Source: Gammaproteobacteria bacterium (GTDB lineage Bacteria; Pseudomonadota; Gammaproteobacteria; Steroidobacterales; Steroidobacteraceae). From it: a stretch of DNA of 39,794 nt. The stretch covers positions 1-39,794 of the forward strand of contig VGUP01000006.1 of NCBI GenBank assembly GCA_016874175.1, in the 5' to 3' direction. A program made the position numbers and the translations under genes. Positions 6,861 through 39,794 of the stretch are shown one piece after another (positions within the stretch are counted from its first letter, which is position 1; each line of letters starts with the position of its first letter). The notes below the pieces were generated by a model, which saw nothing but the letters and a program-made list of their open reading frames with translations, was not told where the DNA came from and did no database searches.

Positions 6861-6866
6861 GACACC

Positions 6867-18218: not shown

Positions 18219-18234
18219 GCGCCTGGTCAGGCGC
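18219..18234. terminator. perfect hairpin at a convergent gene junction, overlapping a stop codon
   Basis: GCGCCT-GGTC-AGGCGC is a perfect inverted repeat (six-pair stem, four-base loop) spanning the stop codon of the minus-strand flavoprotein gene (18227-18229) and lying 15 bases past the PotC-type stop. There is no T-tract on either strand, so it may be a weak two-way terminator, an RNA 3'-end stabiliser, or chance in GC-rich DNA. Confidence 0.35.
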
Positions 18235-20647
18235 GCAACCGCAAGTTCTGCGGATCGTAGAGTGGCTCGGTGGCCACCACCGCGCGTCGCCGCTCGCCGA
18301 GAATCTCTACACTGAGTTCGGTACCCGGCGCCGCGAAATCGGTGCGCACATAGGCGAGCGCAATGCTCTGACGCAGACGATATCCATAGCCCCCGGAGGT
18401 CACTAGCCCCACCTGCTCAGCGCCGCGGAAGACAATCGACACCGCCGCCGCATCGGCATCCGCCGCATCGACCAGCAAGGGCACGAAACGCTCACGCAGA
18501 CCGCTCGCGGCTTCGCGGCGCAGCGCCTCCTGACCGAGAAAGCCACAAGTTTTGTCGAGTTTGACGAAGCGATCGAGTGAGGCCATGAACGGCGTGTACT
18601 CGGTGGTGAGATCGCCCTTCCAGCCGCGATAGCATTTTTCGAGTCGCAGGCTGTCCATGGCATAGAGACCAAAGTCATGTATGCCAAGGGACTCACCGGC
18701 TTCCATCAACAAATCGTAGACCGACAACAGATGTTCGGCGGGAAGGTGTAACTCCCAGCCAAGCTCACCCACATAATTGACGCGCATCGCGAGCGCTCGC
18801 GTATAGCCGAGCTCGATCTCGCGAACCGAAAGCCACGGCAAATGGGTATTTGAGAGATCAGCCGCCGTGAGTCGTGACAGCAGGTCTCGAGAACGCGGAC
18901 CAACCACGATCAAGGTGCCATAACGCGCCGAAAGATTATCGATGCGCACGCCCGAAGCCGGCAGATGTTCGCGCAACCAGTGTTCGTCGTGTCGCTCACC
19001 AGCGGCCGCGCTGATCAACCAGTAACGATCTGCATCAAAAGTCGTAAGCGTCATCTCGGTGACGATGCCACCCCGCTCGTTGCAAAAATAATTGAGTGCT
19101 GTACGACCGGGCTTGGGCACCACGCCGGTGACCATGCGATCGAGCCAATCGCGCGCACCGGCGCCGCTGACTTCGAATTTGGTGAAGCCTGGCAAGTCGA
19201 GTACCGCGACCCGCTGCTGCACGGCCTCACATTCGCGCGCCACCGCTGCGTGCCAGGTAGGACGACGGAACGACGTCTCTGGTCCCGTCGGATCGCCCGC
19301 TATAGGGAAATACACGGCCCGTTCCCAGCCACCGCGCGCACCGAACTTCGCGCCCTTCGCGCGCAAACGCGAGTACGCCGGCGAAGTTTTCGCGGGACGC
19401 CCGGCGGCGCGCTCCTCGGCCGGATACCCGATACCATATTCGTTTTGGTAAGTCTCGATCGCCTTGGCAAGAGTGAACTTGTGATTGTGGCAATCGAGGT
19501 AGCGGCGCGAGTCGAGCGGCCACATATCCCACTCGGGTGTGCCGTGCGCAACCCACTCGGCAATCAACTTGCCGGCGCCACCAGCTTGCGCAATACCAAA
19601 AGTGAATGCACAGCAATGATAAAAACCCGGCAATCCTGGCGCCGGCCCCATCAAAGGATTGCCGTCCGGCGCATAGGGAATCGGTCCATTGATGACGCGC
19701 TTGATGCCGACCGAGCCCAGGATAGGAACGCGCTCGCAGGCCGCTTCGATATAGTTTTCGATGCGTCCGAGATCGTCATCAAAAAGTTGATGCGCGAATT
19801 GATCGGGAATGGCATCGAGCCAATGCGCCGTCGCCTTCCACTCGTAAGGACCGAGAATGAGGCCGTGACGTTCTTGTCGCAGGTAATAGCTCACGTCCGG
19901 GTCGCGCAACAGCGGTAATCGATCGCTGCCGCGCGCCGCAAGCTCAGGGATATCGTCGGTGACGAGGTACTGGTGAGAGAGCGTGACGATCGGCAGATAC
20001 TGGCCGACCATCGCCGCGACTTCGCCACCGCGATAACCTGCCGCGTTGATGACTTTCTGTGCCTGAATCACGCCCTTGTCGGTGGTGATGCGCCATTCCC
20101 CCGAAGCCGTGCGCTTAATCGCCGTGACTCGCGTGTGACGATGGATGGTCGCGCCCGCATCGCGCGCGCCCTTGGCGAGCGCCTGCGTCAACTGCGCGGG
20201 ATCAATGTCGCCATCGTACGGATCGTAGAGTCCGGCCTTAAGATCGTCGGTGGTGACGAAGGGATAGCGATCGCGCAGCTCCGCGGGCGTCAACATCTCG
20301 AACTCGATGCCCTGTGCCCGCGCCTGCGACACCACGTGCTTGAACTCATCGACTCGATCTGCGGTGTGCGCCAACCGAATGCTGCCGGTGATGTGATAGT
20401 TGATGTCGTAGCCCACACGCTGCGCCAGTTGCGAGTAGAGCCGCGTGCTGTGCCGCTGCAGCTTAATGAGGTTCCACGAGGTCGAAAAATTCGGGCAATT
20501 ACCCGCGGCATGCCAGGTGGAACCCGCCGTCAATTCATCCCGCTCGAGTAGCACCGCATCGGTGACCCCGAGTTGCGTCAAGTGATAGAGCGCACTGCAA
20601 CCCACGGCGCCACCGCCGATGATGACCATCTCAGCATGCGTTTTCAT
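18227..20647 (-). CDS. dimethylglycine/sarcosine dehydrogenase-like flavoprotein with GcvT domain (copy 1)
   Basis: An 806-residue two-module enzyme. The N-terminal half is a DAO-type FAD oxidoreductase with IIGGGAVG at 9-16. GSTWHAAG contains His46, matching the His that covalently binds FAD in dimethylglycine dehydrogenase (human His91). YYLRQERHGLILGPYE is also shared with that enzyme. The C-terminal half, from about residue 430, is a GcvT-like tetrahydrofolate-binding module (GELGWELHLPAEHLL, AMDSLRLEKCYRGW). The expected reaction is oxidative N-demethylation of a di- or monomethylated amine with transfer of the one-carbon unit to folate. The open frame extends 63 codons upstream of the ATG (20645-20647) into the preceding gene; AGGAG eight bases before it supports the choice. 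Third gene of a minus operon, 11 bases after copy 2. Confidence 0.93.
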   Translation of the reverse strand: MKTHAEMVIIGGGAVGCSALYHLTQLGVTDAVLLERDELTAGSTWHAAGNCPNFSTSWNLIKLQRHSTRLYSQLAQRVGYDINYHITGSIRLAHTADRVDEFKHVVSQARAQGIEFEMLTPAELRDRYPFVTTDDLKAGLYDPYDGDIDPAQLTQALAKGARDAGATIHRHTRVTAIKRTASGEWRITTDKGVIQAQKVINAAGYRGGEVAAMVGQYLPIVTLSHQYLVTDDIPELAARGSDRLPLLRDPDVSYYLRQERHGLILGPYEWKATAHWLDAIPDQFAHQLFDDDLGRIENYIEAACERVPILGSVGIKRVINGPIPYAPDGNPLMGPAPGLPGFYHCCAFTFGIAQAGGAGKLIAEWVAHGTPEWDMWPLDSRRYLDCHNHKFTLAKAIETYQNEYGIGYPAEERAAGRPAKTSPAYSRLRAKGAKFGARGGWERAVYFPIAGDPTGPETSFRRPTWHAAVARECEAVQQRVAVLDLPGFTKFEVSGAGARDWLDRMVTGVVPKPGRTALNYFCNERGGIVTEMTLTTFDADRYWLISAAAGERHDEHWLREHLPASGVRIDNLSARYGTLIVVGPRSRDLLSRLTAADLSNTHLPWLSVREIELGYTRALAMRVNYVGELGWELHLPAEHLLSVYDLLMEAGESLGIHDFGLYAMDSLRLEKCYRGWKGDLTTEYTPFMASLDRFVKLDKTCGFLGQEALRREAASGLRERFVPLLVDAADADAAAVSIVFRGAEQVGLVTSGGYGYRLRQSIALAYVRTDFAAPGTELSVEILGERRRAVVATEPLYDPQNLRLRA

Positions 20648-20658
20648 TGAACAAACTC

Positions 20659-23118
20659 CTAAGACTTGATGCGCTCGCCTTTCGGGTCGTACCAAGGCTG
20701 CAACTGCACTCGGGCTGCATGAGGCACGCCCGCCACTTCGATTTCCCAGCGCCCTGCGGCCAACCAATCGGACGTGACGCCGGCATCGCAGTGCACATAG
20801 CCCATGCCGATCGAGCGCTCGATACGATGACCCCAAGCGCCGGAGCGCGTGGAGCCGACGATCTCGCCATCACGAATGATCGGTTCCTCGTGATACAGCA
20901 TCGGCGCCGCGGCAGAATGATCTTCGAGCATGAGCTGCACCAGTCGCTTCGGCAGCGTACCGCGTTGTTTTTGCGCCAGCAGCGCGCCGCGACCAATGAA
21001 ACCGCCTTCTTTGTCCCAGGCTACGGTGAAACCGAGCCCCGCCTCGAGCGGCGTGTCTTCATCGGCGATGTCGTGGCTCCAGTGACGGTAGCCTTTTTCG
21101 ACGCGGCAAGCGGCCATCGCGTGATAACCCGCATGCTGCAGACCGAACTCCGCCCCGGCCTCGACCAAACGTTCATAGACATCAAGCACCTGCTCGGCGG
21201 GGATGTACAACTCCCAGCCGAGCTCACCCACATAAGTGATACGACTCGCTCGCACTCGCGCGTAGCCGATCTCAATTTCGCGTGATTGGCCGAAGGGATG
21301 CGCAGCATTGGACAAATCTGCACCCGAGACTTTTGTCAGTAGCGCCCGGCTCTGCGGGCCCATGACGCCGAGCATGGCAATGCCCGCAGTGACATCGGTC
21401 GCCGTGCAATGCAGCGCCGGGTGATCGTCGAGATAACGCGTGAGCCAAGCGAGATCGCGTGTCTGAGAGATGGCCGAAGTCACCACCAAAAATTTATTGG
21501 CTTCGAGACGCGTGATCGTGAGATCCGCCTCGATGCCGCCGCGTTCATTGAGCCATTGGGTATAGACAATACGTCCGGGCGCGACATCGAGATTGCTGGT
21601 CGAGAGCCGATTGAGCACCGCGCAGGCATCGCGGCCCTGCACCAAATATTTGGCGAAGCAGGTTTGATCGAAGAGCGCCACGGCATCGCGCACGGCGCGA
21701 CTCTCATTACCGCAGTAATCAAACCAGTTCTGCCGACCGTAGGCGTATTCGTAGCGGGGCTCGACACCCGCCGGCGCAAACCAATTGGGCCGCTCCCAGC
21801 CTGCGGTCTCACCCATGCAGGCGCCGAGCGCGAGCAATCGATCATGCAAAGCCGTGCGCCGTGCGCCACGCGCGGTTTGGTATTGGTAGTAGGGCCAGTG
21901 CATGGCGTACAACAGCCCCAACGTCTCGACCGTGCGATCGTGGAGATAGCGACGGTTGGACTGAAACGGCAGTGCACGGCGGATGTCCACGTCGGCAAAA
22001 TCCATCGGCGGTCGGCGATCGAGAATCCACTGCGCGACCACCTTGCCCGCACCACCACTCGCGGCGATGCCTACCGAATTGAAACCCGTCGCCACGAACA
22101 GATCACGAACTTCGGGCGCCTCGCCGATGTAGTAGCGATCATCCGGCGTGAAGCTCTCGGGACCATTGAAGAGAAGCTGGATGCCGGCATCGGCCAGCAC
22201 CGGCACGCGGCGCACCGCCGCGGCCAGAATGGGCTCGAAGTGATCGGCGTCTTCGGGCAAAGAATCGAAGCAGAAACTCTCCGGAATTCCGTTCATGCCC
22301 CAAGGCTTGGCCACCGGCTCGAAGCAACCCATCAAAATTTTTCTGGCATCTTCTTTGTAATAGGCGCATTCATCGTAAACGCGCAGCACCGGTAAGTTCG
22401 ACGGTAACTGGGCGATCGGCTCGGTGACGATGTAGAAGTGCTCGGCTGCGTGCAGCGGAATCGACACCCCCGCCGCCCGACCGAGCGCATGTGACCACAT
22501 GCCGGCACAGAGCACGACGGTATCGGCCGCAATATAACCAGACTCCGTCTCGACACCGACCGCGCGTCCTTTTTCGACGCGGATGCCCTGCACCTTGGTG
22601 TTCTCGAATATTTTGGCGCCCCGCATGCGCGCGCCCCGCGCAAACGCCTGCGTGGTGTCGATGGGATTGGTCTGCCCGTCCTTACGAATGAAAATACCGC
22701 CGACGAGATCACCGACCTCGAGCAGCGGCCAGCGCTCGCGGATCTCTTCCACTCGAAGGTGATCGATCTCCAGACCAAACGTTTTGCCCATCGAGGCGCC
22801 GCGATAGAGCTCCTCGAGACGCGCAGGCGTCTTGGCAACGCTGATCGAGCCGTTTTGTTTGAAGCCCGTCGCCTGCCCCGTCTCGGCCTCCAGCGATCGA
22901 TACAGATCAGCGGTGTATTTGGCCAGCTCGGTCAGATTGCGGGTCGCACGCAACTGCCCGACCAAACCCGCCGCGTGCCAAGTCGTGCCACAGGTGAGCT
23001 GCTTGCGCTCGAGCAGCACGACGTCGCTGATGCCGATCTTGGTGAGGTGATACGCGATCGAACAGCCAGCCACACCGCCGCCGATGATCACCACGTTCGC
23101 GTGGCTGGGGAGCGACAT
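20659..23118 (-). CDS. dimethylglycine/sarcosine dehydrogenase-like flavoprotein with GcvT domain (copy 2)
   Basis: 819 residues with the same two-module plan as its downstream neighbour but clearly diverged from it. FAD motif IIGGGVAG is at about 11-18, and the FAD-linking His equivalent is His48 in TTWHAAGLVGQLRATRN. The start of this region, up to TRNLTELA, resembles sarcosine-dehydrogenase-type proteins. The folate module has WLNERGGIEADLTITR and GELGWELYIPAEQVLDVYERL. It probably demethylates a different intermediate from copy 1, for example dimethylglycine against sarcosine; this is inference. The ATG lies 6 bases after the stop of the MttB-family gene, pointing to translational coupling of methyltransferase and dehydrogenase. 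Confidence 0.94.
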   Translation of the reverse strand: MSLPSHANVVIIGGGVAGCSIAYHLTKIGISDVVLLERKQLTCGTTWHAAGLVGQLRATRNLTELAKYTADLYRSLEAETGQATGFKQNGSISVAKTPARLEELYRGASMGKTFGLEIDHLRVEEIRERWPLLEVGDLVGGIFIRKDGQTNPIDTTQAFARGARMRGAKIFENTKVQGIRVEKGRAVGVETESGYIAADTVVLCAGMWSHALGRAAGVSIPLHAAEHFYIVTEPIAQLPSNLPVLRVYDECAYYKEDARKILMGCFEPVAKPWGMNGIPESFCFDSLPEDADHFEPILAAAVRRVPVLADAGIQLLFNGPESFTPDDRYYIGEAPEVRDLFVATGFNSVGIAASGGAGKVVAQWILDRRPPMDFADVDIRRALPFQSNRRYLHDRTVETLGLLYAMHWPYYQYQTARGARRTALHDRLLALGACMGETAGWERPNWFAPAGVEPRYEYAYGRQNWFDYCGNESRAVRDAVALFDQTCFAKYLVQGRDACAVLNRLSTSNLDVAPGRIVYTQWLNERGGIEADLTITRLEANKFLVVTSAISQTRDLAWLTRYLDDHPALHCTATDVTAGIAMLGVMGPQSRALLTKVSGADLSNAAHPFGQSREIEIGYARVRASRITYVGELGWELYIPAEQVLDVYERLVEAGAEFGLQHAGYHAMAACRVEKGYRHWSHDIADEDTPLEAGLGFTVAWDKEGGFIGRGALLAQKQRGTLPKRLVQLMLEDHSAAAPMLYHEEPIIRDGEIVGSTRSGAWGHRIERSIGMGYVHCDAGVTSDWLAAGRWEIEVAGVPHAARVQLQPWYDPKGERIKS

Positions 23119-23124
23119 CGCGAC

Positions 23125-24681
23125 TTAGCGCTTCAGCATTGCCGAACGTTCAAGCTTGACCGGATAGCGCTGCCGAATCGCCTCGTCAATTTTTTCCGGG
23201 ATGTGTGCCGGATGATGTTCGGTGAGGATGTCGCGCACGCGCTGGGCGGCGCGCTCGAGCGCATCGGTGGAACCCTGCTCCGCCCACTCGTTCGGACTGC
23301 GGCGGTCGCCAATGGCTGGATAGAGGTACTCGGTCTGCATCAGCTCGAGCGTCTGCGAACTGCCGAGATAGTGCCCGGGACCATTGAGGCAAACATCTTT
23401 GATGGTCTCGAAGGACAGCCGCTCTTCGTTGACCTCGATTCCTTTGATGGTGCGCTGCGTGGCGCCGATGATGTCGTTGTCGATCACCAGACTCTCGAGC
23501 GAAAAGCCAAGCAGGCTCGCGTGCATGCCCGCCGATTCATAGATGAGATTGGCGCCGGAGTTGCCAACCAACGCATGGTTGAGGGCCTTTTCGCCCGCCG
23601 ACTGCGCATCAGCCACCTTTGAGTCGGTCATACCCGAAGCGGTACCGATCGTCAGGTCATAGAAATTGCCCATCTGCCCGGCAGCCGCGGACAGCAACGC
23701 CTGTTCGGGACTACCGCCCGACATCGCGCCGGTACGCAAATCAGATACGAAACACCAGGTGCCAAAAATTGCCGGCGCGCCGGGCTTGATCGCGTTCACG
23801 TACACGATACCGGCGAGCACTTCCGCGACCTCTTGCGCGAGTGCACCGGCAAGCGCCGCCGGAGCCGTGGCTCCCGCCTGCCCTGCCGACAACAGGAGCA
23901 CCGGCATGCCGCCGAGCACCGCCATCTCGAGACAACGACAGGCATCTGCCGCGAATTTCATGGGTGGCACGACGAAGCAGTTGGACTGACTGACGAACGG
24001 TCGCTCGCGCCATTTGTCTTCGCCACCGGCGATCGCATACAGCATCTGCAGCGAGGCCTCGAGGTGATCGGGGTGGACCCAACTGCTACCGACATGTTTG
24101 GTGGTGCTGCTCACCGCGGCGTAGCAGGTGTTGAAATCCATTTCGAACGGATCGGGAATGTCGCGCGGCACGACGGCGCGCTGGAAGAAATGGATGTGCT
24201 CCATTTGATCGACGACCCGACCGATATCGTAGAGATCACGAATGGTCGATTCACGATAACTGCCCGAGGCATCGACCATGTTGACTGCGGCGCCCGCCGT
24301 GCCGAAATAGGCACGCTTCTCCCAAGGCTCGAGGTCGTGCCGCGGATCTTGTCCATGCAGGGTGAACTTGCGCCCGGCCTTGGCGACCATGTCTTCCACG
24401 AGCGCGCGGGGAAAAAGCAGTCGCCCCGTGACACTCATTTCGCATCCGGCGGCCGTCATGATCTCGATGCCGGATTCGGTGGCATCCGCGAGGCCCACCT
24501 CGGCAAGCAACCGCAGCGCCGTCTGATGGATCTGCTCGATGCCGTGCTGGGTCAGCGGCTGGAAACGACCGCTTTGCATGCCTGGACGGACCGGGCGCAG
24601 GTGATCAGGCAGGGGGCCCGAACGCTGGGCTCTGCGGGCATCACGACCAGAGGGACGCCGGGCAGTCTGCGGTTCGCTCAC
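23125..24681 (-). CDS. trimethylamine/glycine betaine methyltransferase (MttB) family protein, pyrrolysine-free (copy 1)
   Basis: A 518-residue member of the MttB (COG5598) superfamily. Studied members move a methyl group from a quaternary or tertiary amine to a corrinoid protein. Visible blocks are an Arg-rich N-terminal tail (RRPSGRDARRAQR), DIP at 174-176, the small-residue barrel segment GQAGATAPAALAGALAQEVAEVLAG, PGAPAIFGTW, and TDSKVADAQSAGEKAL in the region where archaeal MttB carries pyrrolysine. The whole frame is sense codons, so it belongs to the non-pyrrolysine group that includes glycine betaine methyltransferase MtgB. It starts at GTG (24679-24681) with GGAG eight bases upstream. 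First gene of the operon with two dimethylglycine-dehydrogenase-like genes, and divergent from cobS across 70 bases. The amine substrate is inferred from context; no corrinoid protein gene is in view. Confidence 0.92.
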   Translation of the reverse strand: MSEPQTARRPSGRDARRAQRSGPLPDHLRPVRPGMQSGRFQPLTQHGIEQIHQTALRLLAEVGLADATESGIEIMTAAGCEMSVTGRLLFPRALVEDMVAKAGRKFTLHGQDPRHDLEPWEKRAYFGTAGAAVNMVDASGSYRESTIRDLYDIGRVVDQMEHIHFFQRAVVPRDIPDPFEMDFNTCYAAVSSTTKHVGSSWVHPDHLEASLQMLYAIAGGEDKWRERPFVSQSNCFVVPPMKFAADACRCLEMAVLGGMPVLLLSAGQAGATAPAALAGALAQEVAEVLAGIVYVNAIKPGAPAIFGTWCFVSDLRTGAMSGGSPEQALLSAAAGQMGNFYDLTIGTASGMTDSKVADAQSAGEKALNHALVGNSGANLIYESAGMHASLLGFSLESLVIDNDIIGATQRTIKGIEVNEERLSFETIKDVCLNGPGHYLGSSQTLELMQTEYLYPAIGDRRSPNEWAEQGSTDALERAAQRVRDILTEHHPAHIPEKIDEAIRQRYPVKLERSAMLKR

Positions 24682-24751
24682 TTTGAAACTCCAACGAGAG
24701 ATTTGCGGGTTAGTATCTCATTTATCCGTCAGATAGAGCACTTGCACTCCG

Positions 24752-25735
24752 ATGTCCGATACCGATTCGCTGCTGCCGTTGCGCCCCGATACCGAGGTGT
24801 CGGCAAGAAAGTTTGGTGTTCCGCTCGACATGATGGTGCCGGCGTTCAGCCAACGCTCCGAGTACGTCCCTGAGATCGACCCGGCGTACCACTTCGACCC
24901 CGACACCACCCTCGCCATCCTCGCGGGTTTTGCCCACGATCGCCGCGTGATGGTCCAGGGCTATCACGGTACGGGCAAATCGACGCATATCGAACAAGTC
25001 GCCGCACGTCTCAACTGGCCGTTGATTCGCATCAATCTGGATGGCCACGTGAGTCGCATCGATCTCGTCGGTCGCGATGCCATCGTGGTGACCGACGGCC
25101 GACAGGTCACCGAGTTTCGCGAAGGGCTGCTGCCTTGGGCGATCCAACGACCGGTCGCGCTGTTGTTCGATGAGTATGACGCCGGGCGCCCCGACGTGAT
25201 GTTCGTGATTCAGCGGGTGCTCGAATCGAGCGGCAAACTGACGCTGCTCGACCAAAATCGGGTGATCACGCCGAACCGCTCTTTCAGGCTCTTTGCCACC
25301 AGCAACACCATCGGACTCGGCGATTCCTCGGGTCTCTATCACGGCACGCAACAGGTCAATCAGGGACAAATGGATCGCTGGTCGATCGTCGCCGTGCTCA
25401 ATTACCTGCAGCACAACGTCGAAGCCGCGATCGTCGGCGGCAAAGTGCCGGGCTACGAAGACAGCGCAGGTCAAGGCAACATCAGAGCGATGGTCAGGGT
25501 CGCAGACATGACCCGCAACGCCTTCATGAACGGCGACATTTCGACTGTGATGAGCCCGCGTACCGTCATCACCTGGGCGCAGAACGCGAAAATCTTTGGT
25601 GATCTCGCGCTCGCATTCAAAGTCAGTTTTCTCAATCGCTGCGACGAGCTCGAGCGCCCAACCATCGCCGAATTCTATCAGCGTGCCTTCGGTGTCGAGC
25701 TCGCGCTCGGCTCGTCACAACTCAAGGTGCTCTAA
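24752..25735 (+). CDS. cobS: CobS, AAA+ ATPase subunit of aerobic cobaltochelatase
   Basis: 327 residues, the full length of CobS. Walker A is GYHGTGKST with Lys76; Walker B is [14 protein letters not shown] with Asp140-Glu141. [19 protein letters not shown] and [10 protein letters not shown] are blocks I recognise from alphaproteobacterial CobS. CobS with CobT forms the AAA+ motor that lets CobN insert cobalt into hydrogenobyrinic acid diamide. Here it heads an operon that ends with cobT, with three other genes between. CobN is not in the window, and no cobalamin riboswitch precedes the gene; the 70-base gap to the divergent mttB-like gene is too short for one. It may serve the chelatase elsewhere in the genome or a local corrinoid enzyme. 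The ribosome site is weak. Confidence 0.93.
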
Positions 25736-30000: not shown

Positions 30001-30023
30001 GTCGACTGGAAAAGAGGGGCAGC

Positions 30024-31565: not shown

Positions 31566-33388
31566 AACCCGCCGCACCGCGCCCGTTCGAGCGAGTGCTT
31601 GCCGAAGCAACGCGGGCGCTTGCCGGCGATACCGATCTGCGCGTGATCTTTGGCCCCTCGGGGCCACGACTCGAAGGCGATCGGATACTGCTGCAACCCA
31701 CGCCCGAAAGTCCAACGCCCGAAGCACTGACCTTGGCGCGCGGGCAAGCCGATCGACTCGCCCTGCGTCATGCGCATCATGACCCGCAGTTGCATGCGCG
31801 CTATCGACCCACGGGCTATCGCGCGCGGGCGCTTTTCGATGCGCTCGAGGACGCGCGCTGTCTGTCGCTGGGTGCTCGCGATCTCGCGGGCGTCAATGCC
31901 AATCTGGCCGCCGTACTGCACGATGAGTTGCGACGCAGCAATATTTTGCGCGGTCCTGGCGACAACACGGAGGGTATGTCGCAGGCGCTGACTTTGCTGC
32001 TGCGTGAGCGGCTCGCCGGCATTCCCATTCCGACCGAGGCGCAAGTCCTCGTCGCCCGCTGGCAGTCATTCTTTGACAAGCGAGCGACCGCAAGCCTGCA
32101 GCGACTCGGTCAAGACACTCGTGATCAGGAAGCCTACGCGCTCGAGCTATACCAGCTACTGCGTGCACTCGGTTTCGGTCATGAGATTTCGACCCCACCG
32201 CCGAGTGCGCCAAGCAAGCCTGCGGCGGCCGTAACGCTACCGATACCGACTCGGGTCAAGCCTCGCGGCCTCGATGCTGCCGAAGGTGCCGTGCAAGAAG
32301 CGAAAGAAATTGCCGAGGAGGACGAGCCGGATATCGAGCCGCAGCGACCCTCGAGCGAAACGCGCTCGCCGCAAGCCAAACACCACACCGAGGATGGCAG
32401 TGAGGAATCTCCGGTCGGGAGTCGCCTGAGTCGCCTCGGCGATACCGACTCCACTCATCCCAACCGCAGTTATCGCGTCTATACGCGGGCGCACGACGAA
32501 ATCCTCGAAGCAACGGATCTCGGCAGCAGCGAGGAACTGATTCGACTGCGGGCGGTGCTCGATGAGCAGACGAGGCAACTGCCGGGTATCGTCGCCCGCC
32601 TTGCGCGCAAGCTCGAGCGCGTACTGCGCGCGCAGCAGCGTCGTCGCTGGAATTTCGATCTCGAAGAAGGCGTTCTCGATGCCGCACGTCTGGCGCGAGT
32701 CCTGACCGACCCCCTCGTACCGCTAGCTTTCAAACAAGAGACCGAAACCGAGTTCAAAGATACCGTCGTCACTTTATTACTCGACAATTCGGGTTCGATG
32801 CGTGGCCGACCCATCCTGCTGACTGCCCTGTGTGCCGACCTGCTGGCAAAGACACTGGAGCGCTGCGGCGTCACCACCGAGATCCTCGGCTTCACCACCG
32901 TCGAGTGGGATGGCGGCAAGGCCAGACGCGACTGGATCGCCGCCGGCGCGCCACGAAATCCCGGCCGACTCACCGACGTGCGCTACATCATCTACAAATC
33001 GGGGGATATCGCCTGGCGGCGCTCACGCAACAACCTTGGCCTGCTGCTGCGCGATGATCTGATGAAAGACAACATTGACGGCGAGGCCTTGTGGTGGGCG
33101 CATCAAAGATTGCGGGCCCGACCCGAGCAGCGCCGGATATTGATGGTGATCTCCGACGGCGTACCACTCGAGCAAACCACCTTGTCGGTGAATCCGGGCG
33201 GCTACCTCGATCAGCACCTGCGTCAGGTGATCAAGTGGATCGAGGAGCGCTCGCCCGTGGAACTCGCGGCCGTGGGCATCGGCCACGAGGTCGGGGACTA
33301 TTACTCGCGGGCATTGGCAATCGGCAGCGTCGACGAATTGGGCCCTGCCATGATCTGCAAGCTCGCTGAGCTGTTCGCACCGCGCTGA
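31562..33388 (+). CDS. cobT: CobT, VWA-domain subunit of aerobic cobaltochelatase
   Basis: 608 residues, close to the usual CobT length. The N-terminal helical part has the family blocks [15 protein letters not shown] and [12 protein letters not shown]. An acidic, charged linker (about 235-300) follows, then the C-terminal von Willebrand A domain with metal-site motif DNSGS at 408-412, [26 protein letters not shown] and [18 protein letters not shown]. CobT couples the CobS ATPase ring to CobN during cobalt insertion. GTG start overlapping the stop of the mttB-like gene, last gene of the operon that begins with cobS. Separation of cobS and cobT by an mttB-like gene and two secreted hydrolases is unusual, since they are normally neighbours. 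Confidence 0.94.
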
Positions 33389-33415
33389 CTACGCGGCCAA
33401 CTCTTGATGACTTGT

Positions 33416-33469
33416 GCTCGTCGGGAAGTTGCGCGAGCGGCTCGGGACCTCACTTGAGCTCGTCGGGAA
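33416..33469. repeat. 12-base direct repeat at the cobT/dehydrogenase convergent junction
   Basis: GCTCGTCGGGAA occurs at 33416-33427 and again at 33458-33469. The second copy codes for the C-terminal residues FPDEL of the minus-strand dehydrogenase, and the first lies just past its stop. It looks like a small duplication of the gene's 3' end. The gap (33389-33449) has no clear terminator. Confidence 0.7.
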
Positions 33470-34358
33470 AACCCGGTGCGCGCAAATCGGTGCCAAGCGC
33501 ATCCTCGAGCAACTTCACGATTTGCGTCGATTGCGCTTCACCGCCGTATTGCGAGCGCCCGCGACGGAAAATCTGTTCGGTGAGCCCGGCGAGCTCGAGC
33601 GGCACACCGAACTTGCGCCCGTATTCATAGGCGAAGCCAAGATCTTTGCAGGCGAGATCCATGGTGAAGTTAATGTTGTAGCTGCCATTGAGGACGAGCT
33701 GGCTTTCGGTCTCGTGAACGAAGCTGGTGCCGGAGCTCGCCTTGATCGCATGGAACACCTGGGCGAGATCGAGCCCACCGCGCTTGGCGAGCATCAGCGC
33801 CTCGCCGGCTGCCACCAAATGAATGAACGCGAGCATGTTGGTGATGACCTTGATCACGCTCGCCTTGCCAAGCTCGCCCATGTAGAAAATTTGCCCGCCC
33901 ATCGCCTGCAGGGCCTCACGATGTTGCTCGAACACGGGCTGCTCGCCGCCCACCAATACCGTGATCTTGCCGGCTGCTGCCAAATGCACGCCACCGGTCA
34001 CCGGACACTCGAGTGTCGAGATCCCGCGCTCTGCGGCAATCGCCGCCACGCGCTTGATCTCGCGCTCGTCGGTGGTGCTCATTTCGATCCAGGTGCCGCC
34101 CTTGCGCAGCCCCTGCAGCACGCCGTCGGGACCCGTCAGCACGGCGTTCGAGGCGGCGGGTGACGGCAAACAGGTAATGACGCAGTCCACCTGCTCGGCG
34201 AGCGCGCGCGGCGAATGCACCCAGATGCAGCCGGCGTCGAGCAGCGACTGCGCGGCCTCGCGATGCAAATCATTGACGACGACGGTGAGGCCCGCGCGGC
34301 GCAGACTGGCCGCCAGGTGCTTGCCGAGATTGCCGAGACCAATGTATCCGTACTTCAC
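33450..34358 (-). CDS. 3-hydroxyisobutyrate dehydrogenase family NAD(P)-dependent reductase
   Basis: 302 residues from a GTG (34356-34358) with GAGGAG eight bases upstream; the open frame reaches much further back, but only as antisense to the enolase-superfamily gene. Rossmann motif GYIGLGNLGKHLA is at 4-16. The substrate loop has VTGG (120-123) where the family normally has V-S-GG. The catalytic Lys170 and Asn174 lie in GKASVIKVITN. The family includes hydroxyisobutyrate dehydrogenase, tartronate semialdehyde reductase and related beta-hydroxyacid dehydrogenases. It follows the enolase-superfamily gene by 14 bases, so a two-step route (dehydration of a hydroxy acid, then reduction or oxidation of the product) is likely. 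The exact substrate is unknown. Confidence 0.92.
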   Translation of the reverse strand: MKYGYIGLGNLGKHLAASLRRAGLTVVVNDLHREAAQSLLDAGCIWVHSPRALAEQVDCVITCLPSPAASNAVLTGPDGVLQGLRKGGTWIEMSTTDEREIKRVAAIAAERGISTLECPVTGGVHLAAAGKITVLVGGEQPVFEQHREALQAMGGQIFYMGELGKASVIKVITNMLAFIHLVAAGEALMLAKRGGLDLAQVFHAIKASSGTSFVHETESQLVLNGSYNINFTMDLACKDLGFAYEYGRKFGVPLELAGLTEQIFRRGRSQYGGEAQSTQIVKLLEDALGTDLRAPGFPDELK

Positions 34359-34372
34359 TTGTCTGCTCCTCT

Positions 34373-35473
34373 TCAAAGTTTTGCGCAGCGATACTCGGCG
34401 CGAGCCAACCACTGCGGGTTGATTTCGACACCCCAACCAGGTTCGGCGGGGATTTGTACATGACCGTCGACGACGCGGTACGGATCGCCGAGAAAAAGTT
34501 CCTGCTGCCAAGGGTAGTAATCGGCGCCCTCGATCGAAAGTTCGAGATACTTTCCGGCGTTCGGAATAGCCCCGAGCAGATGCATGGTGCACATCGTCAC
34601 CAAAGAAAGATTGGCGCTGTGCGGGGTCACCGGCAGACCCGCCGCCGCCGCCATGCGCGCCACGGTCAGCGTGCGGGTCAGACCGCCCATGTACATGACA
34701 TCGGGCTGCACCACATCCACCGCGCGCAGGTCGATCATGCGTTGCCAAGTCGCGAGGTCGAAGTCCTGCTCGCCACCGGTGACATCGAGCGCCAGCGCAT
34801 CGGTTACTTGCTTGGTGTCGTCGAGATGCCAGTAGGGGCAAGGCTCTTCGAAATGGCCGACGCCCTCGGCTTCGAGCAAACGCCCCACCGCGATCGCGCG
34901 CCCGGGCGAATAGCCACTGTTCGCATCGACGAGTTTGTCGATCCCGGGTCCCAATGCCCGCGCCACCGTCGGCACAATCTCTTCGGTACGGCCGGGCCAC
35001 TCATCGACATCGCGACCACACTCGGCGGCCACTCGCCACTTGAACGCCGTGAAGCCGAACTCATCGCGCAGGCGCACGAGGCGCAGGGCCTCATCGCGTG
35101 GCGTGATGTCACGCTTCATCGACGACGCATAAGCTCGCAGGCGCCCTGGTTTGCCGCCCAGCAACTCGACCACGGGCTGACCAGCCACGCGACCCTGCAA
35201 ATCCCAGAGCGCGGTATCGAGGCCCGCCAGCGCGCGGCAGCGGTAACTGCCCGGAAACTTGTGCTCTTTCTCCTCGACGCGATCGATCAACGCCTGTATG
35301 TCATGCGCTTCGCGACCCAGCACCCAAGGCACCACCTGTCGGTGGAATACCGTGGCCGTGATATCGGCGTTATACGTCGAAGTCTGCCCCCAGCCGATGG
35401 CGCCCGCGTCCGTCGTCACTTTGACGAAGCAGACGAACTCGTTGGCGTAGGTTTCGAGTGTGGTGATTTTCAT
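34373..35473 (-). CDS. enolase-superfamily (mandelate racemase branch) protein, intact active site
   Basis: 366 residues from ATG 35471-35473, where the first strand (MKITTLETYA) begins as usual for the family; the longer open frame upstream adds only a non-homologous tail. Metal ligands have the expected 26-residue spacing: Asp183 (VDANSGY), Glu209 (FEEP) and Glu235 (GGEQ). The His-Asp dyad is Asp258 (QPD) and His285 (PHS), 27 apart, and the second base region is KWR at 145-147. This is the mandelate-racemase-type set typical of acid-sugar dehydratases, so dehydration of a sugar acid fits better than betaine epimerisation, which uses a Lys-Lys pair. In an operon with the hydroxyisobutyrate-dehydrogenase-like gene and divergent from the SDR operon across 161 bases. 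Confidence 0.93.
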   Translation of the reverse strand: MKITTLETYANEFVCFVKVTTDAGAIGWGQTSTYNADITATVFHRQVVPWVLGREAHDIQALIDRVEEKEHKFPGSYRCRALAGLDTALWDLQGRVAGQPVVELLGGKPGRLRAYASSMKRDITPRDEALRLVRLRDEFGFTAFKWRVAAECGRDVDEWPGRTEEIVPTVARALGPGIDKLVDANSGYSPGRAIAVGRLLEAEGVGHFEEPCPYWHLDDTKQVTDALALDVTGGEQDFDLATWQRMIDLRAVDVVQPDVMYMGGLTRTLTVARMAAAAGLPVTPHSANLSLVTMCTMHLLGAIPNAGKYLELSIEGADYYPWQQELFLGDPYRVVDGHVQIPAEPGWGVEINPQWLARAEYRCAKL

Positions 35474-35570
35474 CTTGGCCGCGGATGCTAGCCGACCGCG
35501 CGAACACGGCACCACCAGGACCACGATGGAATGCGACGCTCGCTTGCAAGATTGCGGCGCGCAACTTCAC

Positions 35571-35599
35571 TTGGAGCGATCTCGACTCGTGGTCATAAT
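35571..35599 (+). promoter_or_regulatory. possible promoter of the SDR-mttB-flavoprotein operon
   Basis: TTGGAG (35571-35576), a 17-base spacer and CATAAT (35594-35599) sit 36 bases before the TTG start at 35635. The -10 matches five of six positions; the -35 keeps only TTG. It lies in a divergent intergenic region, so a shared operator nearby is possible, but I see no clear palindrome. Confidence 0.4.
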
Positions 35600-35634
35600 C
35601 CGCCGCGGGGTGGAGTCACGAGGAGCGGGTCATC

Positions 35635-36420
35635 TTGAGCACAGCGGCAAAACGCGTCGCCGTCGTCACGGGTGCAGCACAGGGGCTCGGTCGCGTGACC
35701 GCGCGCATGCTTGCCGAAGCCGGCCACAACCTCGCGCTGCTCGATCAGCAGCCGCTCGACGCGGTCGTACACGAACTGCAGCACGCGGGCCATCGCGCGA
35801 TCGGTCTCTCGGGTGATGTCGCCGACGAAGCTTTCGTGATCGCGGCGGCCGCCCGCGTGCGCGAAAATCTTGACGGCGCCGATGTTCTGGTCAACAACGC
35901 CGGCATCAGTCAGATCATCCGCGCCGAAGATCTCACGGCGGCGCAATGGCGTCGCGTCATGGATGTGAATCTGCTCGGGCCTTTTTTGCTGTGCCGCGAA
36001 TTCGGCAAACAAATGCTGCAGCGTGGGCGCGGCAGTATCGTCAATGTGGCCTCGGTCGCCGGCTTGCGCGCGGTTGCGCACCGCAGCGCTTATAACACCT
36101 CGAAGCACGGGCTGATCGGCCTCACGCGCACCCTTGCTGCCGAGTGGGGTGGGCGCGGCGTGCGCGTCAATGCCGTGTGCCCGGGCTGGATCAAAACCGA
36201 AATGGACGACGCTGATCAGGGCTCGGGCAACTACACCGACGCCGATATCATTGATCGCGTGCCGATGGCGCGCTTCGCGAAGCCCGAAGACATTGCTGCA
36301 GCGATCGTGTTTCTCGCCGATGCGCGCAGCGGTTTCATCAACGGTGTCAGTCTGCCCGTCGATGGCGGCTGGACGGCGGACATCGGCTGGGAATCCCTGC
36401 GACGCAAGACCCGCGCGTAA
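35635..36420 (+). CDS. short-chain dehydrogenase/reductase (SDR)
   Basis: 261 residues, classical SDR length. The cofactor loop is TGAAQGLGR at 12-20, NNAG is near 88-91 and the catalytic pair is YNTSK with Tyr153 and Lys157. PVDGGWTADIGW near the C terminus is the usual substrate-loop end. It oxidises or reduces a hydroxyl/keto group with NAD(H) or NADP(H). The start is TTG 35635 with AGGAG nine bases before it; no ATG fits. First gene of an operon with an mttB-like gene 34 bases on and a dimethylglycine-dehydrogenase-like gene. It may process the carbon skeleton of the amine being demethylated (for example a carnitine-like hydroxyl), but that is a guess. Confidence 0.93.
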   Translation: MSTAAKRVAVVTGAAQGLGRVTARMLAEAGHNLALLDQQPLDAVVHELQHAGHRAIGLSGDVADEAFVIAAAARVRENLDGADVLVNNAGISQIIRAEDLTAAQWRRVMDVNLLGPFLLCREFGKQMLQRGRGSIVNVASVAGLRAVAHRSAYNTSKHGLIGLTRTLAAEWGGRGVRVNAVCPGWIKTEMDDADQGSGNYTDADIIDRVPMARFAKPEDIAAAIVFLADARSGFINGVSLPVDGGWTADIGWESLRRKTRA

Positions 36421-36454
36421 GACCAGCAAAATTTTTCAAGGAGCAACTCCATCC

Positions 36455-38026
36455 ATGACTGAGGCAGACCCGGGATCAAGCACTGCGGCACCGGCCGCCG
36501 ATCGACGTGGGCGCAGGCGCAGTGCGGCGCAAACCGTCGAAGCCCCGGCGCGCCAGTCGCGCTACCGGCACCTCGTCAATCCGTTCGAACCGCTCAAAGT
36601 ATTCTCGGACGATCAGGTCGCCGCCATTCACGCGAGCGCCCTCACGCTACTCGCAAATCAGGGTATACGGGTGTTGCTGCCCGAAGCCCGCGAGGCCTAT
36701 CGCCGCGGCGGCGCACAAGTCGATGAATCGACGCTGACGGTTCGCCTTGATCGCGGCCTCGTCGAGCAGTGCTTGAAGATGGCACCGCGCGAAATCGTCA
36801 TGCGTGCCGCCAAGCCCGAGTTCGACATGCCCGTGTGGGGTCGGCATGTGATGTTTGCACCTACCTCCGGCCCACCGAACATCATGGACAGTGTCCGCGG
36901 CAAGCGCGCGGGCGCGTTCGAAGACTTCTGCAACATCATCAAAATTTGCCAGAGCTTCGAGGTCCTGCACGGTCTTGGCGGTCTCGTCGAACCGCAGGAT
37001 ATTCCGGTGCAGTTCCGGCATCTCGAAACCACCCGTGCGATGCTGCTGATGTCCGACAAGATCCCCAAGGTCTATGCGCGCGGCCCGGGACAGACCGTCG
37101 ACAACTTCGAAATGATCCGTATCGCCTACGGACTCTCGGTCGAAGAATTCCAATCACGCCCCTGCGTCACCACCATCATCAACACCAACTCGCCACTGCA
37201 ACTCGATATCCCGATGGCGAACGGCATCATGGATTACGCTGCTGCGGGGCAGGTACTGATCATCACGCCGTTCACGCTCGCGGGCGCGATGGCGCCAGTA
37301 ACCATTGCAGGCGCGCTCACCCTCGCCCACGCCGAAGCGCTGGCAGGCCTGACCCTCGCGCAAATCATTCGCCCGGGTGCACCGATCATCTACGGCAGCT
37401 TCACGTCGAACGTCGACATGAAGTCGGGTTCGCCCGCATTCGGCACGCCGGAATACGTGAAAGCGGCTTTCGGCGCCGGACAACTCGCCCGCTACATCGG
37501 TCTGCCGTGGCGCTCGTCGAACGCAACGGCTTCGAATTGCCCCGATGCGCAGTCGGCTTATGAATCCGAAATGAGTCTCTGGGGCGCACTGCTCGGCGGC
37601 TGCAATTACATCCTGCATGCCGCGGGATGGCTCGAAGGCGGCCTCACGACGTCGTACGAAAAACTCATCCTCGACATCGAGATGCTGCAGATGTTCGCCG
37701 AAGTCTTCCAGCCGGTGGGGGCGAGCACCGACGACATCGCGCTCGACGCCATCGCCGAAGTGGGTGCGGGGGGACATTTCTTTGGTTGCGCCCATACCAT
37801 GGCCCGCTATCGCAATGCCTTCTATGCGCCACTGGTCTCGGATTGGCAGAACTTTGGCCGGTGGCAGGCCGCGGGTGCCAAAACCGCCACCGAGCGCGCC
37901 ACGGAGATCTGGCGCCAAACAGTCGATGCGTACCAGCCGCCACCCCGCGATCCTGCGATCGTCGAGGCGCTTAATGATTTCGTCGCCCGGCGTACGGCCG
38001 AAGGCGGCGCACCTCCCGTCAGCTGA
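36455..38026 (+). CDS. trimethylamine/glycine betaine methyltransferase (MttB) family protein, pyrrolysine-free (copy 3)
   Basis: 523 residues from ATG 36455 with AAGGAG eleven bases upstream; the open frame extends back into the SDR gene but has no credible start there. It has an Arg-rich tail (DRRGRRRSAAQ), DIP at 182-184, the barrel segment TLAGAMAPVTIAGALTLAHAEALAG, PGAPIIYGSF, SNATASNCPDAQSAYES in the pyrrolysine region (all sense codons) and HAAGWLEGGL. This is the same superfamily as copies 1 and 2, and it looks nearer to copy 2. Its position directly before a dimethylglycine-dehydrogenase-like gene mirrors copy 1 on the other strand, so the mttB-flavoprotein pair occurs twice here. 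Likely substrate is a quaternary amine whose dimethyl product feeds the flavoprotein; this is inferred. Confidence 0.92.
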   Translation: MTEADPGSSTAAPAADRRGRRRSAAQTVEAPARQSRYRHLVNPFEPLKVFSDDQVAAIHASALTLLANQGIRVLLPEAREAYRRGGAQVDESTLTVRLDRGLVEQCLKMAPREIVMRAAKPEFDMPVWGRHVMFAPTSGPPNIMDSVRGKRAGAFEDFCNIIKICQSFEVLHGLGGLVEPQDIPVQFRHLETTRAMLLMSDKIPKVYARGPGQTVDNFEMIRIAYGLSVEEFQSRPCVTTIINTNSPLQLDIPMANGIMDYAAAGQVLIITPFTLAGAMAPVTIAGALTLAHAEALAGLTLAQIIRPGAPIIYGSFTSNVDMKSGSPAFGTPEYVKAAFGAGQLARYIGLPWRSSNATASNCPDAQSAYESEMSLWGALLGGCNYILHAAGWLEGGLTTSYEKLILDIEMLQMFAEVFQPVGASTDDIALDAIAEVGAGGHFFGCAHTMARYRNAFYAPLVSDWQNFGRWQAAGAKTATERATEIWRQTVDAYQPPPRDPAIVEALNDFVARRTAEGGAPPVS

Positions 38027-38058
38027 TTACAGTAGAAAGACAAGCGGAAAAACAAGTC

Positions 38059-39794
38059 ATGAAAAATCAGGCAAAAGTAGTCGTGATCGGCGGTGGCGTA
38101 GTCGGCGTCAGCGTGCTTTATCACCTGACCAAGGCCGGCTGGCGCGATGTCATGCTGATCGAGCGTGCCGAGCTCACCTCGGGCTCGACCTGGCACGCCG
38201 CAGGCGGCATGCATACCGTCAACGGCGACCCGAACGTCGCCAAGCTGCAGCAGTACACCATCAATCTTTACCGCGAACTCGAGCAGATCTCAGGTCAATC
38301 CTGCGGCCTGCACATCACCGGCGGTCTGATGCTCGCCGGCACGCCGGAACGGCTCGACTGGCTGAGGATGACGGTGGCGCGCGGCCGTTATCTCGGCATG
38401 GATCTCGAACTCATCGACATGGCCGAGACCAAAAAGCGTTTTCCGCTGCTGGACGAAAAACATTTCGTCGGTGCGATCTATGACCCCATTGAGGGTCACG
38501 TCGATCCGTATGGCGTCACCCACGCCTACGCCAAATCGGCGCAAATCGGCGGCGCTGAAATCGTCCGACAAAATCGCGTGACCGATCTCAAGCAACGCGC
38601 TGATGGCAGTTGGGACGTGATCACCGAGCAAGGCAACGTACACGCCGAGCATGTCGTCAACGCCGGTGGACTATGGGCGCGTGAGGTGGGTCGCATGGTC
38701 GGCCTCGAGTTGCCGATTCTCGCCATGGAACACCAATACATCATCACTGATGATCTGCCCGAGTTGGCGGGTCAACCCGAGTTGCTGCACGTCATCGACT
38801 TCGAAGGCGAAATCTACATGCGACAAGAGCGCGGCGGCGTGCTGCTCGGCACTTACGAGCGCGCGGGCGTGCCCTGGTCGACGCGTACCACGCCTTGGGA
38901 TTTCGGTCAGGACCTGCTGCCCAACGATCTCGAGCGTATCGCGCCCAGCCTGGACGTCGGCTTCAAACATTTTCCACGACTCGGCGAAGTCGGCATCCGC
39001 AAAATCGTCAACGGCCCCTTCACCTTTGCACCCGATGGCAATCCCCTCGTCGGCCCCGTTCCGGGATTGCGTAATTTTTGGGTGGCCTGCGGCGTCATGG
39101 CAGGTTTCAGTCAGGGCGGCGGCGTGGGTCTCGCGCTCGCGCACTGGATGGTCGATCGCGACCCCGGCGCCGACATCTGGGGCATGGACGTTGCGCGCTA
39201 CGGCGAGTGGGCGACCCGTCGCTACACCAATGTCAAAGTCCGCGAAAATTACTCGCGGCGCTTCCGCATCCGCTTTCCGAACGAAGAATTGCCAGCCGCC
39301 CGCCCGCTCAAAACCACGCCGATTTACGATCGGCTGCAAGCCGAGAACCCGGTCTGGGGCGATTACTGCGGACTCGAACACGCGCTGTGGTTCGCGCCCA
39401 AGGGCAGCGACGCCCGCGAAGATGTCACCTTCCGTCGCTCCAATGCCCATGCGCATGTCGCCGCCGAGTGTCGCGCTGTACGCGATGCCGTAGGCATGAT
39501 CGAAATCTCGAACTACGGCAAGTTTGAAGTCACCGGACCCGACGCCGAGCGCTGGCTCGCACAGATCATGGCCAACAAGGTACCGGCCAACGGACGCGTG
39601 ACGCTAACACCGATGCTCAATGAAAACGGCAAGCTCATCGGTGATTTCACCATGTGTCGGATCAGCGTCGAGCGCTTCCTGCTGGTTGGCACGTATGCGG
39701 CAGAGCGTTTTTATCAGCGCTGGTTCGAAGCGCGCTTGGCCGGCTTCAAGGTACAAGTACGCGCCTGCGCGATGGAGTGGCTCGGGCTGTCGAT
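38059..39794 (+). CDS. dimethylglycine/sarcosine dehydrogenase-like flavoprotein with GcvT domain (copy 3, cut by window end)
   Basis: The first 578 residues are present; the rest lies beyond the window. FAD motif VIGGGVVG is at 9-16. His46 in GSTWHAAGGMHT is the flavin-linking His position. YMRQERGGVLLGTYE and NGPFTFAPDGNPLVGP are shared with dimethylglycine dehydrogenases. The folate-binding module starts at about residue 440 (FRRSNAHAHVAAECRAVRD, YGKFEVTGPDAERWL, LNENGKLIGDFTM). It starts at ATG 38059, 32 bases after the mttB-like stop, with only a weak ribosome site. Expected to demethylate oxidatively the product of the neighbouring methyltransferase and load the one-carbon unit on tetrahydrofolate. 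Confidence 0.93.
   Translation, partial: MKNQAKVVVIGGGVVGVSVLYHLTKAGWRDVMLIERAELTSGSTWHAAGGMHTVNGDPNVAKLQQYTINLYRELEQISGQSCGLHITGGLMLAGTPERLDWLRMTVARGRYLGMDLELIDMAETKKRFPLLDEKHFVGAIYDPIEGHVDPYGVTHAYAKSAQIGGAEIVRQNRVTDLKQRADGSWDVITEQGNVHAEHVVNAGGLWAREVGRMVGLELPILAMEHQYIITDDLPELAGQPELLHVIDFEGEIYMRQERGGVLLGTYERAGVPWSTRTTPWDFGQDLLPNDLERIAPSLDVGFKHFPRLGEVGIRKIVNGPFTFAPDGNPLVGPVPGLRNFWVACGVMAGFSQGGGVGLALAHWMVDRDPGADIWGMDVARYGEWATRRYTNVKVRENYSRRFRIRFPNEELPAARPLKTTPIYDRLQAENPVWGDYCGLEHALWFAPKGSDAREDVTFRRSNAHAHVAAECRAVRDAVGMIEISNYGKFEVTGPDAERWLAQIMANKVPANGRVTLTPMLNENGKLIGDFTMCRISVERFLLVGTYAAERFYQRWFEARLAGFKVQVRACAMEWLGLS

Follow-up and report, generated by a model that had tools for sequence, protein, structure and literature searches.

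What would a probably aerobic gammaproteobacterium do with several methyltransferases of the MttB superfamily, when cobalamin-dependent demethylation of quaternary amines has long been regarded as anaerobic chemistry? The question is raised by contig VGUP01000006.1 of a member of the Steroidobacteraceae, a stretch of 39,794 nucleotides that was analysed as a whole and is here called the window. It carries three MttB-superfamily genes (MttB1, MttB2 and MttB3) and three genes for dimethylglycine-dehydrogenase-like flavoproteins (DGa, DGb and DGc), and a fourth methyltransferase gene, MttB4, lies on another contig of the same genome, C159. Gene content and residue patterns make it likely that these genes belong to a cobalamin- and folate-dependent system for quaternary-amine demethylation of the MtgBCD type, served by several MttB paralogues of differing substrate range. 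The kind of system is already known, as the marine aerobe Ruegeria pomeroyi demethylates glycine betaine via MtgBCD, a conclusion based on proteomics and on mtgC and mtgD mutants (Mausz et al., 2025; PMC12478193), and the module formed by MttB1 with DGa and DGb would be a variant of it.

All four MttB proteins are members of PF06253 without pyrrolysine, as the first-pass annotation had stated for the three of the window, and the scores of these (Table 1) lie far above the PF06253 cut-off of 25 bits. The three reading frames of the window contain no internal stop codon, and neither the stop-codon check nor the alignment column revealed in them the in-frame UAG that is typical of the pyrrolysine-containing trimethylamine methyltransferases (Pyl-MttB). 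In an alignment of 150 sequences, on which the residue comparisons below are also based, the pyrrolysine column holds Met in MttB1, Leu in MttB2 and a one-residue gap in MttB3, and the same holds by group, with Met in 33 MttB1-type rows, Leu in the MttB2/MttB4 rows and the gap in the MttB3 rows. The three flavoprotein genes were likewise recognised correctly. In profile searches DGa and DGb show the domain layout of dimethylglycine dehydrogenase (DAO, FAO_M, GCV_T and GCV_T_C), and DGc, of which the C-terminal half lies on C159, has dimethylglycine dehydrogenase 4p9s as its best match. The motif [ST]TWHA, whose histidine we take to be the site of covalent FAD attachment, is present in these three proteins and in a fourth, DGd, encoded elsewhere in the genome.

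The order of a methyltransferase gene followed by a flavoprotein gene is found twice on opposite strands, as MttB1-DGa-DGb on the minus strand, where DGa starts 6 bases past the MttB1 stop and DGb 11 bases past the DGa stop, and as MttB3-DGc on the plus strand. MttB2 has no flavoprotein partner and is followed instead by cobT, with which it shares a 4-base overlap, and MttB1 is divergent from cobS, 70 bases separating the two starts. The window and contig C159 share an overlap of 409 bases (98.8% identity) at the end of the window, and C159 goes on with the remainder of DGc, the gene of an S-methyltransferase (PF02574, 313 aa; homocysteine-methyltransferase-like) and MttB4; the S-methyltransferase is nearer to homocysteine S-methyltransferases than to betaine-homocysteine methyltransferase (BHMT), with all models under cut-off. 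The reading of C159 as the continuation of the window is supported by the same contiguous order, DGc, S-methyltransferase, MttB4, in eight loci of relatives, some of which may share one genome (L060, L061, L141, L145, L146, L170, L171, L178).

Table 1. Features of the window: position, strand and main profile or structure matches.
Feature	Coordinates	Strand	Matches and remarks
Polyamine (Pot)-type ABC transporter genes beside DGb	14115..18203	+	PotD-/PotA-like matches under cut-off; PF00528 twice
DGb, second dimethylglycine-dehydrogenase-like flavoprotein	18227..20647	-	PF01266, PF01571, PF08669, PF16350; motif STWHAAG; ATG at 20647
DGa, dimethylglycine-dehydrogenase-like flavoprotein, FAD and folate domains	20659..23118	-	PF01266, PF16350, PF01571, PF08669; best PDB match 5l46; motif TTWHAAG
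MttB1, MttB-superfamily methyltransferase, Pyl-MttB side of tree	23125..24681	-	PF06253 387 bits; TIGR02369 369 bits (cut-off 525)
cobS, AAA+ cobaltochelatase subunit	24752..25735	+	TIGR01650 588 bits (cut-off 558.6)
M20 peptidase and amidohydrolase fusion, one 930-aa open frame	25736..28528	+	PF01546, PF01979; between cobS and MttB2
Endonuclease/exonuclease/phosphatase-family protein	28525..30000	+	PF03372
MttB2, MtgB-like	30024..31565	+	PF06253 707 bits (longer frame from 29997); nearest solved chain 4yyc, 647 bits
cobT, cobaltochelatase VWA subunit	31562..33388	+	PF11775, PF06213 over cut-off; TIGR01651 654 bits, under cut-off 759
3-hydroxyisobutyrate-dehydrogenase-like protein	33450..34361	-	NF043037, TIGR01692, both under cut-off; neighbour conserved in genus
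Enolase-superfamily enzyme (MR_MLE)	34373..35524	-	PF13378; 572 bits to 3tcs ('Racemase, putative'); neighbour conserved in genus
Short-chain dehydrogenase, just upstream of MttB3	35635..36420	+	PF13561
MttB3, MttB-superfamily methyltransferase	36455..38026	+	PF06253 661 bits; group of 91 rows in tree
DGc, dimethylglycine-dehydrogenase-like flavoprotein, cut by contig end	38059..39794	+	443 bits to 4p9s; motif STWHAAG; remainder on C159

The corrinoid protein, folate methyltransferase and RamA-like activator that the first-pass annotation had named as partners to be sought outside the window were all found elsewhere in the genome, which thus contains MtgC-, MtgD-, RamA- and DUF1638-type genes, the gene content of the aerobic MtgBCD system. 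On contig C114 a GbdR-like regulator, mtgC, the DUF1638 gene, a protein of a 'virulence factor' family (VF), a methylenetetrahydrofolate reductase (MTHFR) C-terminal protein and the first part of metF are all encoded on the same strand, with DGd and soxB divergent from the regulator; C114 overlaps contig C108 by 628 bases at 97.6% identity, where metF, mtgD and ramA follow one another with 4-base overlaps. The whole set from mtgC through the DUF1638, VF, MTHFR C-terminal, metF and mtgD genes to ramA is one contiguous run in a relative (G051, L177), and in other families of the order mtgC adjoins MttB1 (L159, L160, L162). The MtgC-like protein (235 aa) has the B12-binding domain and its cap (PF02310 and PF02607), the MtgD-like protein (326 aa) matches PF00809 and scores 363 bits, over a cut-off of 259, with NF005719, a domain model for methyl-tetrahydrofolate:corrinoid/iron-sulfur protein methyltransferases, and the RamA protein holds four RACo-type domains. 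As for the routes to which the first-pass annotation had limited aerobes, the oxygenase GbcAB and BHMT, that limitation is superseded by the aerobic MtgBCD route (PMC12478193). Its remark that neither enzyme is seen here stands for the oxygenase, Ring_hydroxyl_A (the GbcA type) giving 0 matches at E 0.001 in this 96% complete genome, and less well for BHMT, of which a BHMT-like fragment of 64 aa (best model NF005718) occurs at the edge of contig C20; bacterial proteins of this type have been read as a homocysteine module, MtgE, and not as a betaine demethylase (Mausz et al., 2025; PMC12478193).

The distribution of these genes in other genomes follows the same lines. In 118 relative genomes, which are mutually related, so that the counts describe a pattern and not independent trials, searches with MttB1 at E 1e-10 give an MttB match in 46, and a RamA match is present in 47; both occur in 43 and neither in 68, leaving three genomes with MttB and without RamA (G060, G088, G107) and four with the reverse (G050, G079, G093, G098). 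Among 36 open reading frames (ORFs) of MttB1 type, defined by MttB1 as the best of MttB1-4 and with genome G015 counted twice, 14 have a flavoprotein (DG) gene on the same strand within 1 kb, downstream DGa in the 13 that belong to the window's family (window included) and upstream DGa in one alphaproteobacterial metagenome-assembled genome (L124). At the 12 loci of that family besides the window, the DGa open frame starts within 11 bases of that of MttB1 or overlaps it. Of 148 plasmid records with an MttB1 match, ten named loci were examined, nine of them with a DG gene nearby (on the opposite strand in L215, L216 and L218) and five with two; the exception is Leisingera caerulea, in which a ring-hydroxylating dioxygenase gene adjoins MttB. 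The run DGb-DGa-MttB1 recurs in Sinorhizobium meliloti, Sinorhizobium sp. K101 and Shinella at 50-59% identity. On pSymB of S. meliloti Ak57 (L207 9454-11731), the DGa homologue is divided between two frames and has no annotation. For MttB3, in the 62 loci with 3 kb on either side among the best 80 of 594, a DG gene of at least 40% identity lies on the same strand within 1 kb in 33 (20 upstream, 13 downstream), and the open frames of MttB3 and DGc in roseobacters usually touch or overlap. No same-strand DG gene was found within 1 kb of MttB2 in any of its 8 rows. The pairing of mttB and flavoprotein genes is frequent, not universal, and its recurrence in other genomes, which the first-pass annotation had left as a check, extends to Sinorhizobium, Shinella and roseobacters, lineages that we take to be aerobic.

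These arrangements also bear on a very improbable explanation, the least credited of those considered here, according to which unrelated catabolic genes have come to lie side by side by chance and the flavoproteins do not act on the products of MttB proteins. It would account for the many MttB loci without an adjacent flavoprotein gene and for the sugar-acid-type enzymes and peptidases that the window also carries, but not easily for the closely set or overlapping MttB1 and DGa frames at 12 loci, for the three-gene set in Rhizobiaceae or for the abutting DGc and MttB3 frames of roseobacters.

Whether the paralogues share one substrate is a question for the active site, in which Y94, N199, R309, H345 and F/Y353 of Desulfitobacterium hafniense MtgB have been named as betaine contacts from docking (PMC6855144). 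In these columns MtgB reads YNRHF, and both the S. meliloti protein 4yyc and MttB4 read YNRHG, a pattern kept by 13 of the 15 other members of the MttB4 group. MttB2 reads GNRHG, as do four of the five others in its group, and MttB3 reads SNRHG, with ANRHG in 48, GNRHG in 27, SNRHG in 14 and ASRHG in 1 of the 90 others. MttB1 reads GFGEL, which is the same in 28 of the 33 others of its group, the remaining five also lacking Y, N, R and H; in ten more distant named homologues the arginine is replaced by Gly or Ser in all, and the histidine by Glu in eight and Gln in two. MttB4, in which all four predicted contacts are kept, is therefore likely to fit a glycine-betaine enzyme, MttB3 retains three of the four and lacks the tyrosine, and glycine betaine is an unlikely substrate for MttB1 because the predicted betaine-contacting residues are absent from it.

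It is on these residues that an improbable alternative has to be weighed, namely that all the MttB paralogues are redundant MtgB copies for glycine betaine and the flavoproteins isozymes of dimethylglycine dehydrogenase. In its favour, MttB2 and MttB4 are 59% identical and cluster with Sinorhizobium 4yyc in a quick maximum-likelihood tree, the GbdR-like regulator, DGd and soxB adjoin mtgC, and two MttB proteins increase on betaine in Ruegeria (PMC12478193); against it, MttB1 is only 26-28% identical to the other paralogues and differs, together with its whole group, at all four contact positions, Tyr94 is missing throughout the MttB3 group, and a candidate betaine set (MttB4, DGd and SoxB) exists apart from MttB1 and MttB3. 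Another proposal, that MttB1 is a pyrrolysine-free methyltransferase for trimethylamine or tetramethylammonium rather than for a larger quaternary amine, is unlikely, if somewhat less so than redundancy. MttB1 does fall with Pyl-MttB in the tree, it scores higher with TIGR02369 than MttB2 (251 bits) and MttB4 (261 bits), these three having been scanned, and HMMER aligns one of its tyrosines with Tyr364 of MttB. However, the TIGR02369 score is below cut-off, the branch toward Pyl-MttB is long, some MttB1 homologues have His, Thr or Cys in place of the aligned tyrosine, and Met stands in the place of pyrrolysine, which is thought to form a quaternary adduct with trimethylamine (PMC9842639, PMC12155760); moreover, two flavoproteins beside MttB1 suit a larger product better than dimethylamine. 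The tree was built without the characterised enzymes for proline betaine, carnitine, butyrobetaine and phosphocholine, so that its branching gives no ground for calling MttB1 new among all described classes.

Returning to demethylation by paralogues of differing range, gene content, pairing, co-occurrence and residue patterns are compatible with a scheme in which each reaction and each substrate is a prediction. Each MttB protein would have a trimethylammonium substrate of its own and transfer one methyl group of it to cob(I)alamin carried by a shared MtgC, MtgD would pass it to tetrahydrofolate and MetF would oxidise the methyl-folate, with RamA, together with the DUF1638 protein, re-reducing inactivated cobalamin. 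The DG flavoproteins would then remove the next methyl group or groups oxidatively, with folate as the one-carbon acceptor, giving methylene-folate. MttB4 would be the likely glycine-betaine enzyme and MttB2 its relative, MttB3 and DGc would act on another carboxylated betaine, and MttB1 with DGa and DGb could take three methyl groups in turn from a trimethylated amine and so leave a primary amine; the substrate of MttB1 would be a trimethylammonium compound, probably not bound by a carboxylate as glycine betaine is. Three demethylations would fit the two DG proteins that accompany MttB1, and a primary-amine product would fit the aminotransferase gene of the Ruegeria version described below. 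The sequence already suggested by the first-pass annotation, with MttB acting first and a flavoprotein with folate next, is supported by gene content; it does not extend to MttB2, which has no flavoprotein partner, and MttB1 lacks the predicted betaine contacts. Pocket residues and flavoprotein partner together sort the paralogues, so that 'many paralogues' become testable substrate classes.

Several observations weigh against this reading. The word aerobic rests on the relatives and on bchH and holds only probably. MetH is nearly full in this genome (a frame of 1199 aa, the N-terminus of the protein lying on C54), unlike about 70% of the MtgBCD genomes of Mausz et al., which are without it (PMC12478193); since MetH is present, the need for mtgC and mtgD in methionine synthesis, which is a trait of MtgBCD, may not hold here. 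The names MtgC, RamA and GbdR are given by type only, because the scores lie below the nearest NCBIfam cut-offs: 212 vs 370 bits for MtgC, 375 vs 800 (AcsV) and 99 vs 500 (RamA) for the RamA-type protein, and 408 vs 480 for the GbdR-like regulator. An adjacent same-strand DG gene is missing at 22 of the 36 MttB1-type ORFs (some at contig ends) and at 29 of the 62 MttB3 loci of the sample given above. Finally, the betaine contact columns come from docking into MtgB and not from a ligand-bound structure (PMC6855144), the pyrrolysine column holds Met in five and Ile in five of the ten more distant named MttB1 homologues, and the position of MttB1 with Pyl-MttB involves long branches flagged by the tool.

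A separate question is posed by cobS and cobT, which adjoin MttB1 and MttB2, respectively, in a genome where, at 96% completeness, neither CobN (cobalt insertion) nor CbiC (corrin synthesis) was found. The long CobN candidate is BchH, the H subunit of magnesium chelatase (L016, contig C102, 4744-8427; 1228 aa; TIGR02025 1165 bits over a cut-off of 829), which a PF02514 search by itself would label as CobN, which leaves one unassigned piece of about 50 residues at a contig edge (C75); since bchH is present, the organism may make bacteriochlorophyll. That CobS and CobT are plain parts of an aerobic cobaltochelatase for cobalamin synthesis seems doubtful: CobS exceeds its TIGR01650 cut-off, a cobalamin operon lies beside the mtg genes in S. 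meliloti (PMC12478193) and cobalamin genes may be missing from the incomplete assembly, but the long CobN-like protein is BchH, and CobN over cut-off occurs in only three of the 118 relatives (G059, G066, G092) and CbiC in two (G059, G066). All of these fall outside the 22 relatives with a clear CobT, a count that excludes four genomes with 20-25-bit matches (G034, G044, G050, G064); of the 22, 13 are without any match to the CobN model and nine have under-cut-off matches, a kind classed, as BchH, in the window's genome only.

CobT as an obligate partner of MttB was dropped, since MttB matches are missing from five of the 22 CobT genomes, the other 17 having MttB1-type proteins (identity of at least 46%), and 17 of the 34 MttB1-type genomes have no CobT match. 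In G021 (L143) at least, cobS lies at a contig end beside MttB1, and the missing CobT may be an assembly gap. The pair cobS-cobT is divergent from MttB1 in G003, G007 and G020, and also in G032, G037 and G060, where an aldehyde dehydrogenase gene is interposed. An ancestral origin of the overlap between MttB2 and cobT was also abandoned, as cobS and cobT are adjacent in most CobT relatives; in the window's subclade MttB2 and two further genes sit between them, and the overlap looks derived. CobST may have some other role, because the control genome of Caulobacter vibrioides has a CobT_C match and no CobN or MttB match, although a CobT_C match alone is no proof of CobT, since Bacillus subtilis matches too; a gene that bears the name cobT has a fitness effect under EDTA in Caulobacter (PMC12004947). 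The pair without CobN may thus belong to a broader puzzle. The most far-reaching version of the proposal, decidedly improbable as a whole, would combine two claims: that MttB1-DGa-DGb is a full line from a non-carboxylated trimethylammonium compound to a primary amine in aerobes, with MttB1 a pyrrolysine-free relative of the trimethylamine methyltransferases, and that CobS and CobT were recruited as an ATP-driven helper of the MttB system, to load or reactivate cobalamin.

Among the neighbouring genes, the Pot-type transporter beside DGb is tied to MttB1 by a link that we infer from position alone. Near MttB1 of S. meliloti, Sinorhizobium K101 and Shinella there are likewise genes for a Pot-type transporter and for an aminobutyraldehyde dehydrogenase, and identity to the window's proteins is 48% for the ATPase, 25-30% for the permeases and 37% for the dehydrogenase; orthology is not shown by these values, and a polyamine-type substrate of MttB1 was dropped as evidence. 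A proline-betaine epimerase function for the enolase-superfamily enzyme is unsupported, its four best solved matches bearing family-type names only. At 6765-11601 the window encodes a TonB-dependent receptor and then a TPR-sulfotransferase protein, and comparable pairs occur near MttB genes in several relatives.

The MttB1 module is also found in tractable hosts, Sinorhizobium and, in a more distant version, R. pomeroyi DSS-3, which makes its substrate accessible to ordinary genetics. On the DSS-3 megaplasmid (L209 10004-19324) an MttB1-like gene is followed by genes for a class III aminotransferase, two DG proteins and a thiamine-pyrophosphate (TPP) enzyme related to sulfoacetaldehyde acetyltransferase, a run that is the same in Ruegeria sp. 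THAF33 and that, from its gene content, looks like an entire amine pathway. The aminotransferase is nearest to glutamate-1-semialdehyde aminomutase, under cut-off, and taurine betaine as substrate is a lead only, the TPP enzyme scoring 394 vs a sulfoacetaldehyde acetyltransferase cut-off of 676 bits.

Compared with known systems, the genome is closest to the MtgBCD and split methionine synthase set of R. pomeroyi, with which it shares an MttB-family protein, MtgC, MtgD, RamA, DUF1638, a MetF paralogue, several MttB paralogues and later steps by other demethylation enzymes; it differs by the presence of MetH and in that its four MttB genes are not grouped with mtgC and mtgD and that two of the four have flavoproteins of their own. 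Genomes of this kind often have several MttB paralogues, up to seven, suggested to act on other methylated compounds (Mausz et al., 2025; PMC12478193). The introduction, results and discussion of that paper contain no description of a module of MttB1 with two flavoproteins, and among the papers listed by searches of the open-licence PubMed Central library none joined MttB with dimethylglycine dehydrogenase. As regards single enzymes, D. hafniense MtgB (2qne; 9yce has an identical aligned sequence) is also a PF06253 protein without pyrrolysine, whose Y94, N199, R309 and H345 are shared by MttB4 and not by MttB1, MttB2 and MttB3, which differ in pocket columns, but it belongs to an anaerobe with MtgA instead of MtgD. 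The trimethylamine methyltransferase of Methanosarcina barkeri (7xcl), with which MttB1 groups, has pyrrolysine where MttB1 has Met, and two flavoprotein genes downstream are particular to MttB1. The DG proteins share the FAD, FAO_M and GcvT-type folate domains and the [ST]TWHA motif with dimethylglycine dehydrogenase (4p9s, 5l46), from which DGa, DGb and DGc differ as separate paralogues encoded next to MttB proteins. From published descriptions alone, the arrangement can also be likened to that of Eubacterium limosum, an anaerobic acetogen unlike this bacterium, in which MtpB, MtcB, MtyB and MthB are MttB paralogues, each with its own quaternary amine, and MtpB, MtcB and MtyB share one corrinoid protein, MtqC (PMC8604678, PMC12155760).

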